Assembly: GCF_001612965.1 (NCBI RefSeq)
Contig: NZ_BDBL01000018.1
Span: forward strand, 1-64,000
Origin: Nocardia kruczakiae NBRC 101016
GTDB lineage: Bacteria; Actinomycetota; Actinomycetes; Mycobacteriales; Mycobacteriaceae
Length of the DNA: 64,000 nucleotides
Reading direction: 5' to 3'
The position numbers and the translations under genes are program-made. Shown one piece after another: positions 24,906 to 54,865 of this stretch (its first letter is position 1; each line of letters starts with the position of its first letter). The notes beneath the pieces are model-generated. The model was given only the letters and a program-made list of their open reading frames with translations, made no database searches and was not told the origin of the DNA.

Positions 24906-25122
24906 CGGCGCAGCGAGGCGATTTCACGGGCCGCTCGCCTGTTCCGCTGCCGCTTTTCCGATATGTCGTCGCCAGTGGCACCACGCCCCGTCAACCGTTC
25001 GATGAAACGACGAATTCCCAAGCGCACCAACCTCTTCCACTCTCCCGATACCGATAATTCTACGCCCGGCCACCGACAAGTAGCGGCCTCCGCGGGAGCG
25101 CGAACCGGACTCTCGAGCGGCA

Positions 25123-25139
25123 TTCAGCCAGGTCTCAGC
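25123..25139 (+). promoter_or_regulatory. Candidate response-regulator box upstream of the two-component operon
   Basis: TCAGC occurs at 25124-25128 and again at 25135-25139, a direct repeat with an 11-base period as used by OmpR-family regulators. Similar TCAG pairs occur upstream of the hemophore-like gene at 27341-27396. Confidence 0.5.
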
Positions 25140-25155
25140 AAGTGCGGCGAATAAT

Positions 25156-25836
25156 GTGCGGGTGCAGCCGGGACGCATTCTCCTGATCGAAGACGCCGAC
25201 GCCATTCGCACGGCGGTCGCCGCGGCCGTGCGCACCGCCGGACACGAGGTCCTCGCGCGCGAGCACGGCGATCGGCTGGAGGCCGATCTGGAGCGATTCC
25301 GTCCCGATGTCGTCGTCCTCGACGTGATGCTGCCGGGTCGCGACGGTTTCGGCCTGCTCGAGGTGGTGCGCGCCCGCAGCGGCGCCGGTGTGGTGATGCT
25401 GACCGCGCGCGACGGTGTGGAGGACCGGGTGCGCGGACTGCGTTCCGGATCCGACGACTACGTGGTGAAACCGTTCGACCTGGCCGAACTGGTAGCGCGG
25501 ATCGAGGCGTTGCTGCGGCGGATGGGGCGCATGCACAGCCGCATCACCATCGCCGATCTGGTGCTGGAAACCGATTCCGGCGTGGTGCTGCGCGGCGGCG
25601 AACCGATCACCCTCACCGCCACCGAATTCAAACTCCTCGCCTACCTCGCGGCCCACCGCGACCGGGTCGTCACCAAGACCCAAATCCTCACCGCGGTCTG
25701 GGGTTACGAGGACTACGACCCGAATCTGGTCGAGGTCTACGTCAGCGCGGTGCGCCGCAAACTGGAGGCATACGGCCCACGCCTGCTGCACACGGTACGC
25801 GGCATGGGCTACGCGTTACGGGCGAATCCGCGATGA
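25156..25836 (+). CDS. OmpR-family response regulator
   Basis: This 226-residue protein has a receiver domain with phospho-acceptor D56 (VVVLDVMLPGRDG), conserved T83 (MLTARD) and K105 (VVKPFD). The C-terminal winged-helix domain ends HTVRGMGYALR. The start is GTG 25156; GTG 25162 is a close alternative. The stop overlaps the histidine kinase start in an ATGA junction, so the two are translationally coupled. TCAG direct repeats with an 11-base period lie just upstream and again before the hemophore-like gene that follows the kinase, which suggests autoregulation and control of that gene. The signal is unknown. Confidence 0.93.
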   Translation: MRVQPGRILLIEDADAIRTAVAAAVRTAGHEVLAREHGDRLEADLERFRPDVVVLDVMLPGRDGFGLLEVVRARSGAGVVMLTARDGVEDRVRGLRSGSDDYVVKPFDLAELVARIEALLRRMGRMHSRITIADLVLETDSGVVLRGGEPITLTATEFKLLAYLAAHRDRVVTKTQILTAVWGYEDYDPNLVEVYVSAVRRKLEAYGPRLLHTVRGMGYALRANPR

Positions 25837-27344
25837 ACGACGATCCGGCCGACGCCGCGCCCACACCACCCGGCACTCCGGACGACACCACCGGATCGAA
25901 CGCTCTCGGACCCGCGCCGGACCACTCGGCCCCGCCCGCGGCGGTGCGGCCCCGACCGCCGGCACTGCCGACGATTTCGCTGCGGCGCCGGGTAACCCTC
26001 ACTGCCGCAGCCATTTCCGGGCTCGCACTGATCGTGGTGGCGCTGGCGGTGCACAGTCTGTTCGGGGTCGTGGTGGCGCGCAGCGCGAATACGGTACTCA
26101 CCGACCGAGTCCAGCTGGCCCGGCAGCTCGCGCAGCAGAACACCCCGCCCGCGGAGTTGATCGCCCGCGTGGACAATCGCTCGGTACGAGCCCGGCTGGT
26201 CCTCACCGACGGCAGTGTCTACGGCAGCCTCTCGCCCCGGCATGCCGGGGACGGCAGCCCCCGGACCAGAACCGTCACCCTCGGCGGTGGCGGAACGGTG
26301 GATCGCGCCAGGCTCACCCTCCAGGTCGACACCCCGCTATTGACCGCGCTGCGGTCACGACTCGGCCTGGTCCTGATCGGGGTGACCGCCACGGCCATCG
26401 TCGCCATCACGGCCGCGCTGTGGGTGGGATTGCGCCACGCGCTGGCGCCCCTGGATTCGATGACCCGGCTGGCCCGCGAGATCGCTCGCGGTGGCCGCGG
26501 CCGCCGCCTCTCCCCCACCCGCACCGATACCGAATTGGGCCGCACGGCGAGCGCTTTCGACGAGATGCTGGACGCCCTGGAGGGCGCCGAAGCCCGGGCA
26601 CGGGCCTCCGAACAACAGATGCGCGCCTTCGTCGGCGACGCCGCTCACGAACTGCGCACGCCCATCGCCGGCATCAAGGCCATGGCCGAAGCGGTCCTGC
26701 ACCAGCCCGCCGACACCGGACCCGAAGAGCGCGAACGCATGTATCTGCTGCTGGTCCGCGAAGCCCAGCGCGCCGGGCGCCTGGTGGAGGATCTGCTCGA
26801 CATGGCCCGCATCGACGCCGGGCTCACCCTGTATCGGCAATCGGTCGACCTGTACGAACTCGCGCACGCCCAGGTCGACCGCATGCGAATCCTGCACCCC
26901 GACATCGACTTCCGGCTCACCGGCCACACCGTGCTCACCCTCGCCGATCCCGAGCGGGTGGGCCAGATCCTGGTGAACCTGCTCGCCAATGCGTGTCAGG
27001 CCACTCCCCCAGGCGGCGCGGTCTCCCTCACCGTGGGAACGGTCGGCGACACCGATACGGGCATCACCCCATCGGAAATCCGCGTCGCCGACACCGGTCC
27101 CGGTGTACCGGCCACCGAGCGCGAACACATCTTCGGGCGCTTGGTGCGGTTGGATACGAGCCGGGACCGCCGCCGCGACGGTGCCGGGATGGGGCTGGCC
27201 ATCGCACGCGGTATCGCCCGCGCCCACGGCGGCGACCTGCGCTGCGTGGAGCCGCCACCCGGAACCACCGGCGCGGTATTCGTGCTGACGCTGCCCGCCC
27301 GGGAAGTCGGTCCGACATCGCCGGAAGGGCCGTCCCCCGCCTGA
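25833..27344 (+). CDS. Sensor histidine kinase
   Basis: This 503-residue membrane kinase has a Pro-rich cytoplasmic N-terminus (about 1-47), a first helix (about 52-72), a periplasmic sensor of about 95 residues, and a second helix (about 175-197). HAMP and HisKA domains follow, with phosphorylated H272 in GDAAHELRTPIAG. The ATP-binding domain shows the N box (VNLLANACQATPPGG), G1 (VADTGPGVP) and G2 (GAGMGLAIARGIARAHGG). It overlaps the response regulator gene by four bases. The periplasmic domain has no recognisable sensor fold. The neighbouring hemophore-like secreted protein hints at an envelope or haem-related signal, but that is inference. Confidence 0.93.
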   Translation: MNDDPADAAPTPPGTPDDTTGSNALGPAPDHSAPPAAVRPRPPALPTISLRRRVTLTAAAISGLALIVVALAVHSLFGVVVARSANTVLTDRVQLARQLAQQNTPPAELIARVDNRSVRARLVLTDGSVYGSLSPRHAGDGSPRTRTVTLGGGGTVDRARLTLQVDTPLLTALRSRLGLVLIGVTATAIVAITAALWVGLRHALAPLDSMTRLAREIARGGRGRRLSPTRTDTELGRTASAFDEMLDALEGAEARARASEQQMRAFVGDAAHELRTPIAGIKAMAEAVLHQPADTGPEERERMYLLLVREAQRAGRLVEDLLDMARIDAGLTLYRQSVDLYELAHAQVDRMRILHPDIDFRLTGHTVLTLADPERVGQILVNLLANACQATPPGGAVSLTVGTVGDTDTGITPSEIRVADTGPGVPATEREHIFGRLVRLDTSRDRRRDGAGMGLAIARGIARAHGGDLRCVEPPPGTTGAVFVLTLPAREVGPTSPEGPSPA

Positions 27345-27396
27345 GGATCGGCTGAAGATCGCGTACGCCCACTCGGCGTTTTCAGGGTCCTTTCAG
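27341..27396. promoter_or_regulatory. Paired TCAG direct repeats upstream of the hemophore-like gene
   Basis: TTTCAG occurs at 27380-27385 and 27391-27396 (period 11). A second pair in the opposite orientation, CTGAGG at 27341-27346 and CTGAAG at 27352-27357, also has period 11. The arrangement suits dimers of an OmpR-type regulator, probably the one encoded immediately upstream. Confidence 0.6.
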
Positions 27397-27451
27397 ATTC
27401 GGCGCGCAGATTCGGAGCCGACATCATCCCGTCACGAATGGAGTTACCGGT

Positions 27452-54755: not shown

Positions 54756-54865
54756 GAATATGAGGCTAACGGCGTGGCAGTCGGGGGGCGCGACGACGGC
54801 CGGTGTTTTTCTCAGGTGTCCCTCAGCCTCCCCATACCACCGGCACATCGGGAACCGCCAGAGTA

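Follow-up and report, generated by a model that had tools for sequence, protein, structure and literature searches.

We analyzed a 64,000-nucleotide stretch of DNA from Nocardia kruczakiae NBRC 101016 (contig NZ_BDBL01000018.1, positions 1 to 64,000; hereafter the window), in which a two-component system is followed by a gene for an apparently secreted protein of the MHB/hemophore-related family (Table 1). The host genome is 7.3 Mb in size, and the strain stands near N. aobensis and N. cerradoensis. The response regulator (RR) is a member of the OmpR/PhoB family by domain content, with a PF00072 receiver domain at 78.6 bits and a PF00486 winged-helix Trans_reg_C domain at 91.6 bits, both over the cut-offs; its gene overlaps that of the sensor histidine kinase (HK). 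An initial annotation had placed TCAG direct repeats with an 11-base period at 25124/25135 and 27341/27352, coordinates that exact search returned unchanged, and a third pair at 27380/27391. The third pair was also present, but these positions are the starts of longer TTTCAG units and TCAG itself begins at 27382/27393. We named the three sites O1 (before the RR gene), O2 and O3 (distal and proximal, before the MHB gene). It is likely, in our judgement, that the window RR reads these sites and controls both its own operon and its secreted MHB partner.

Table 1. Coordinates of the genes, operators and promoter elements; positions are those of the window unless a locus is named.
Feature	Position	Strand	Remarks
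Operator O1, TCAG-N7-TCAG (TTCAGC-N5-CTCAGC), before RR	25124..25138	+	exact pattern match
AATAAT, -10-like	25150..25155	+	11 bases past O1; assigned from sequence
RR, OmpR/PhoB family, 226 aa	25156..25836	+	Response_reg + Trans_reg_C; start GTG 25156 or, likelier, 25162
HK, 503 aa, HAMP-HisKA-HATPase	25833..27344	+	4-base overlap with RR gene
Operator O2 (distal), TCAG-N7-TCAG	27341..27355	-	exact match; CTGA at 27341 holds kinase stop codon
Operator O3 (proximal), TTTCAG-N5-TTTCAG	27382..27396	+	faces O2; 41 bases apart, start to start
CAGATT, -10-like	27407..27412	+	10 bases past O3; within conserved GGGCAGATTCGG block; motif-blind alignment, 20 promoters
GGAG, ribosome-binding site of MHB gene	27440..27443	+	identical in at least 90% of 20 promoter sequences
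MHB/hemophore-related protein, 109 aa	27452..27781	+	signal-peptide-like N-terminus judged by eye; Cys33 and Cys106 invariant (22 members)
MprA-type site CTCAGGTGTCCCTCAG, upstream of SigE gene	54812..54826	+	same core; outside circuit
Divergent MHB-like secreted protein	L010 1273-1752 (G000:C80)		behind TCAG pair, directly before PrrA orthologue and kinase
G022 MHB gene, apparently fused to former regulator promoter	L300 1318-1420		two-component genes apparently lost

The exact TCAG-N7-TCAG pattern matched four times in the window, three times in the circuit and once before sigE; the initial annotation does not mention the sigE match. In 100 dinucleotide shuffles of the window the mean was 1.06 sites, and four were reached in a single shuffle. 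The whole genome had 88 such sites against 54 for the reversed pattern. The bare motif is thus frequent overall, and its enrichment is only about 1.6-fold; the genome scan proposed in the initial annotation did give an excess over the reversed pattern, but only of this size. The non-randomness of the three circuit sites comes from conservation. From the 88 sites we listed 83 places, leaving out the three circuit sites and, twice, the second of two overlapping pairs, and examined 80 of them. Sorting of these sites into coding and intergenic was unreliable because the sigE site was classed as coding through an open reading frame (ORF) on the opposite strand, and given this no regulon was drawn from the genome-wide sites.

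Conservation was assessed in 79 named loci from a kinase scan. Two of these (L065 and L089) were without a usable RR match and were dropped, so that with the window 29 Nocardia and 49 non-Nocardia loci were counted; for L023 the end of the kinase gene was placed manually. In the Nocardia loci, 64 sites fell into the 10.2 kb that lies upstream of the RR genes or behind the kinase genes, and four into the remaining 205 kb. All four stand in front of the MHB gene in L023 and L037; in these two loci the kinase is followed by an additional 570-720 bases of DNA, and the operator remains with the MHB gene. The 49 non-Nocardia loci, which include Kribbella, Curtobacterium, Actinomycetospora, Crossiella and Mycobacterium, had 51 sites in 17 kb of such intervals and eight in the 334 kb elsewhere. 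The exact pair was absent from these intervals in 11 of the 49 non-Nocardia loci and in Nocardia L039; no post-kinase pair was seen in L025 and L032, whose examined flanks gave no MHB match. We aligned 20 HK-MHB intergenic regions (19 of the 25 named MHB loci plus the window, near-identical ones omitted) by MAFFT without reference to the motif. The invariant or nearly invariant blocks were CTGA..TC..CTGAAG, TTCAG, TCAG, G.G.A.ATTCG, GGAG and the start codon, and thus take in the TCAG units and most of CAGATT. Both pairs were found in 19 of the 20 promoters, while in shuffled promoters a pair arose at 0.2% per promoter and strand and both together in 0 of 10,000. The conservation of the operator is far beyond chance. 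The TGA that ends the kinase gene is shared with an operator CTGA: with the first unit in the window and a number of other species, in others with the second.

The gene behind the operator varies outside Nocardia. In Skermania (L038) and in one Mycobacterium metagenome-assembled genome (L040) it encodes another, apparently membrane-anchored protein. A Pfam scan of four non-Nocardia neighbour proteins returned no family for those of Skermania (L038) and Curtobacterium, a weak DUF5666 match for Actinomycetospora and DUF1800 for a divergent gene. Curtobacterium loci (L054, L060, L061, L066 and others) carry CTTCAG-N5-CTTCAG on the minus strand between the regulator and a divergent ORF, which is rich in Pro, Gly and Ala and has one apparent membrane segment by eye; the ORF of L061 was without a Pfam match.

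We then compared the occurrence of the genes in 118 Nocardia genomes, at thresholds of E 1e-70 for the RR (best 24 candidates per genome scored) and E 1e-6 for MHB. The RR was found in 32 genomes, MHB in 28 and both in 27 (Fisher p 2e-20, kinship ignored). The double operator stood at the MHB gene in 25 of these 27, which supports the proposal that regulator and hemophore-like gene share one operator type. With 23-51 bases allowed in the search, the facing pairs were spaced by 30 bases in 11 genomes, 40 in four and 41 in ten, the short class having about one helical turn of spacer fewer. The two exceptions were G043, where MHB precedes the regulator and one pair lies upstream, and G074, in which the distal pair is exact and the proximal has one mismatch. 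Since many species with both the sensor-regulator pair and the MHB gene have retained the sites, the two very probably form one control circuit. The adjacency of the kinase and hemophore-like genes and the 11-base tandem geometry were likewise supported by comparison.

Among the other 91 genomes an MHB gene was found only in G022, and there it had no operator. The RR was not found in G022 at the threshold used and the RR-HK pair is absent. Its MHB is 78% identical, and upstream of the gene lies a stretch that can be aligned to the G036 regulator promoter, with GTGCAGCCG at its end. The TTCAG and the CTCAG of G036 each correspond to CCCAG in G022, so that both TCAG units read CCAG. MprA, a paralogue of the window RR that is considered below, is present in G022. 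The arrangement suggests that the RR-HK pair was deleted and that the operator then decayed.

The same core motif lies at that paralogue. L117 holds mprA-mprB-pepD-moaB2 with an exact TCAG-N7-TCAG before mprA and before pepD; the window RR is 45% identical to this MprA and, as this gene order lies at L117, is not the MprA orthologue. MprA was present in all 25 genomes examined, and in 24 of them the mprA promoter had the exact pair, on a plan of pair, 10 bases, CAAACT as the -10-like element and then ATG. The gene that follows the site at 54812 scores as a SigE equivalog with 376.6 bits (cut-off 265), and sigE and pepD are reported as direct MprAB targets in M. tuberculosis (PMC3062566). The core motif alone cannot assign sites because it is shared with MprA. 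We compared the flanks of 68 circuit sites from 28 Nocardia loci (the window, L011-L035, L037 and L041) with those of 24 mprA promoters, the latter set being assigned by gene context and not by binding. The base before the first unit was T in 67 of the 68 circuit sites and C in all 24 mprA promoters, and after the first unit 67 circuit sites had C or G, whereas all 24 mprA promoters had T. T followed the second unit in one circuit site and in every mprA promoter. Circuit sites consequently differ from the MprA box, which has CTCAGT in both halves, and read TTCAG[C/G] instead. The regions that we take to hold the recognition helices also differ, with NLVEVYVSAVRRKLE in the window RR and NALEVYIGYLRRKTE in MprA. 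The core itself is not specific to this regulator, as it occurs at MprA with other first-unit flanks. First-unit flanks, co-occurrence and G022 together point to the local regulator as the reader.

Some side observations concern MprA-type sites and other candidate systems. The 16-mer CTCAGGTGTCCCTCAG occurred in at least 12 of the 25 Nocardia genomes, that of the window included, its location before sigE being checked only in the window. Another 16-mer, CTCAGGAACTTCTCAG, is exact in at least 15 Nocardia genomes (for example G001:C37:389228 and G003:C79:19064) and is missing from the sites of the N. kruczakiae genome; it is perhaps a conserved MprA-type site of some gene. The C. glutamicum MprA motif, given as TKTTAAGAAM in PMC12113857, is unlike the Nocardia box and was set aside. 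The CutRS secretion-stress system, for which PMC12802291 gives TAWATAAA as the bound motif and a conserved pair of Cys in the sensor CutS, was also rejected, as its motif is unlike these repeats and the kinase sensor region here is without a Cys pair: Cys was absent from a 100-residue stretch of that region in 31 of 32 kinases (window, L011-L041), and L038 had one.

Several observations weigh against the local RR as the reader of these sites. The base before the second unit was T in 39, C in 28 and A in one of the 68 circuit sites, which overlaps with the C of all 24 mprA promoters, and the sigE site has G rather than T after the first unit; on both counts the flank rule is imperfect. The flanks separated less clearly outside Nocardia, where 36 of 51 sites had T ahead of the first unit. 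TTCAG-N6-TTCAG occurred 123 times against 45 for controls in the 25 genomes, also in genomes without the system; CTCAG-N6-CTCAG was weakly enriched (220 against 179 for the reversed pattern). The double-pair pattern matched 36 of the 118 genomes (reversed control, 1 of 118), and in 11 of the 36, all from the 91 outside the set with both RR and MHB, it lay only away from an MHB gene. In some of the 32 genomes scored for RR the match is distant (57-68% identity in G051, G069, G005 and G043). G022 is a single genome, and L018 and L268 carry one TCAG-to-CCAG change with an intact system. The regulator promoter itself varied: 17 of the 29 Nocardia loci had an exact pair no more than 170 bases before the RR gene, 16 of 30 genome loci had an exact RR-upstream pair, and in eight of the remaining 14 the same region has a TTCGCAG-N4-TTCACAG-like repeat with CAG units 11 bases apart.

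That last repeat is nearer to what we take to be the PhoP box, and another regulator may have taken over at promoters of this type. Because part of the genus has it, self-control through the same site is not universal. Seven of the eight genomes concerned (L281-L288) still have the exact TCAG double operator at MHB, and the eighth, G074, has one mismatch there.

How far MprA could account for the sites was weighed on the same evidence. If MprA read them, with the two-component system and MHB as members of an MprA/SigE regulon, one would understand the common core and period before mprA, pepD and the window sigE, the direct control of two of these genes by MprAB in M. tuberculosis (PMC3062566) and the C that 28 of the 68 circuit sites share with the mprA boxes before the second unit; yet the first-unit flanks hardly overlap in Nocardia, MprA is in every genome examined whereas the double operator at MHB was found only where this system is present, and G022, with MprA and without the system, has degenerate repeats. 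We consider this explanation improbable. Binding by this RR together with MprA or a PrrA paralogue, so that MHB integrates several stress signals, has more to recommend it. The core is common to them, the second-unit flanks overlap in part, and the PrrA locus of the same genome (L010) has TTCAG-N6-CTCAG before its MHB-like gene. Given that the first-unit flanks differ, such cross-regulation seems to us possible, if on the unlikely side.

For the local regulator we infer a model that comprises binding, activation rather than repression, cooperativity and feedback. The RR, phosphorylated by the kinase, would bind as a dimer, head to tail, on direct repeats of TTCAG[C/G], each subunit taking one 11-base step. 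One dimer on O1, at the -35 position and 11 bases before the -10 element, would stimulate transcription of the operon of RR and HK. Two dimers would occupy the MHB promoter, on O2 and O3, facing each other from the same side of the helix at 30 or 40-41 bases, and with O3 lying 10 bases before the -10 element the MHB gene would be switched on cooperatively. The circuit's output would be the secreted MHB protein, which outside the membrane would probably also serve the kinase as an accessory or feedback partner. The -10 assignments at the MHB, RR and mprA promoters are our own, made from sequence. At the regulator promoter, AATAATGTG is retained in the close species L011-L018 and L020, relatives' sequences favour the RR start at codon 3 (GTG 25162), and the distance to AATAAT would imply a leaderless start at this codon.

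PhoB-type regulators usually activate from direct repeats 10-11 bases before the -10 element, which is the layout seen here and speaks for activation. The opposite, that the regulator represses MHB and itself, draws on the overlap of O1 with the -35 region, a position compatible with both effects, and on M. smegmatis, in which deletion of MSMEG_0244/0246 raised msmeg_0243 (PMC7516205); regulator and operon layout in that species differ from those of the window, and we find repression rather doubtful. It could also be asked whether the facing CTGA and TCAG units are an RNA hairpin or terminator after the kinase and not a protein operator. The arms can pair, and in L033 and L027 the predicted stem continues through much of N7. 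However, a folding signal was inconsistent over the four sequences folded: L033 was better than its shuffles (z -3.2, 2 of 200), whereas the window (z -0.8, with 43 of 200 shuffles folding at least as well), L021 (z -1.3) and L027 (z -1.5) were not distinguished in this way. Between species the spacer length changes by roughly one full turn of the helix, RR genes are preceded by single pairs that have no counterpart facing them, and a -10-like block stands at a fixed distance after the operator. A hairpin was rejected as extremely improbable.

The MHB protein of the window matched its family profiles well over the cut-offs (PF16525, 85.7 bits against 27.4; TIGR04529, 67.5 against 32). Its predicted structure had block-mean pLDDT values of 94-95 over residues 41-100. 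The best Foldseek match was 3may_H (Rv0203, PDB 3MAY; TM 0.60/0.67, E 0.33), and VIA-align 2 gave a Z of 10.5 to 3MAY (next row 5.2; rmsd 2.1 over 78 residues; about 20% identity), with the caution that for helical proteins a Z below about 13 may reflect a common arrangement. A profile match to Rv0203 (E 0.0026), with Cys at both aligned ends, agrees with the fold match. By this model the window protein has the Rv0203-type MHB fold.

The initial annotation had called the product a secreted haem-type binding protein. In an alignment of 22 members (20 of the 25 named MHB loci, the window and L010; near-identical ones omitted) the invariant residues included Cys33, Pro57, Glu62, Pro70, Gln73, Arg74 and Cys106, and there was no invariant Tyr or His, and no invariant Met beyond the start. 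The haem site of Rv0203 we take to be Tyr59/His63/His89, presumably with Tyr as the iron ligand. The window protein has Phe52, His56 and Tyr80 at these positions and so departs from that site at two of them. Across the family the first is Tyr in 14, Phe in seven and Ile in one of the 22, and the second His in 19 and Asn in three. Since the ligand-site residues differ (Phe52, Tyr80) and no Tyr or His is invariant, haem binding by the window protein is no more than possible, and a haem role of the circuit is weakly supported. Membership of the Rv0203-type MHB family stands; against the haem part are the Phe in place of the presumed Tyr ligand and an analogue without a haem phenotype, described below.

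The best-studied analogue is MSMEG_0243-0244-0246 of M. smegmatis, where a two-component system likewise adjoins a secreted Rv0203-type MHB gene. There, however, the MHB gene lies within the operon of a PrrA-type regulator, whereas in the window it lies behind the kinase, with a promoter-like region and double operator of its own. The window regulator is not of the PrrA type, scoring 160 bits to 1ys6 and 172 to PhoP, while the PrrA orthologue at L010 scores 352 to 1ys6. According to PMC7516205, MSMEG_0243 is co-transcribed with the PrrA-type system, is thought to be its accessory protein and binds heme in vitro, and its mutants showed no link to haem or iron supply. Pronounced changes in biofilm and PIM acylation were seen in the triple mutant, not in single or double mutants (PMC7516205). 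The same source reports that loss of msmeg_0243 raised expression of the kinase gene. Each loss thus raised the other's expression, which by analogy suggests mutual control and is the best lead for a feedback role of MHB. In Nocardia an MHB gene stands beside a two-component system in the window, and 27 of the 28 MHB-bearing genomes also have the RR. The family is paired with at least two regulator types, that of this system and the PrrA type in Nocardia and M. smegmatis, in Nocardia with TCAG-type repeats each time; at L010 the MHB-like gene scores 22.3 bits, below the Pfam cut-off.

Other systems share parts of this plan. MprA-MprB-PepD (SigE) also combines an OmpR-family RR, a kinase and an extracytoplasmic output gene right behind the kinase, with TCAG-N7-TCAG before regulator and output gene and a -10-like element 10 bases on, but it is a separate paralogue with CTCAGT units and an HtrA-type protease as output. 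Rv0203 of M. tuberculosis shares the MHB family, the fold and the terminal Cys pair, and differs in its low identity, in having Tyr where the window protein has Phe, and in that the window gene lies beside a two-component system. CpxP-type proteins are small secreted helical partners beside OmpR-family envelope-stress systems. The MHB protein resembles them in being small, secreted and helical and in standing next to a system of this kind that is proposed to control it, but no relation in sequence or fold was established, no CpxP/Spy fold being among the Foldseek or VIA matches of the MHB model, and the feedback is inferred. We tentatively entertain the idea that MHB proteins are mainly secreted partners of OmpR-family two-component systems and not nutritional hemophores, with MHB sensing envelope or redox state and signalling back to the kinase, though we hold this unlikely as it stands. 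No published description of the Nocardia RR-HK-MHB system was found in a literature search that left most subscription papers outside its reach. By sequence the circuit appears to be of the same kind as MprA-PepD and MSMEG_0243-0246; new in it are its regulator, boxes of the form TTCAG[C/G] and a double operator whose pairs face each other at whole-turn spacing.

These results give an uncharacterised actinobacterial two-component system a candidate operator, a candidate target and an apparent natural deletion in G022. Spacers that differ by about one helical turn would make the MHB promoter a clean case for cooperative binding by two OmpR-type dimers. Nocardia TCAG-N7-TCAG sites should be split by their flanks before they are assigned to MprA or its paralogues, and the habit of reading each MHB protein as a haem scavenger is weakened.

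Minor observations were made on other repeats of this type. A triple TCAG-N7-TCAG-N7-TCAG lies at G000:C19:956-981 (L167), shortly before an ABC-transporter ATPase-like ORF, and another at G000:C18:116795-116820 (L166), with similar ones in G001:C11. The sequence TCAGCAAACCTTCAG occurs twice in the N. kruczakiae genome (G000:C8:13813 and C39:87614), and TTCAGCAAACCTTCAG is exact in four other genomes (G002, G007, G010 and G017).

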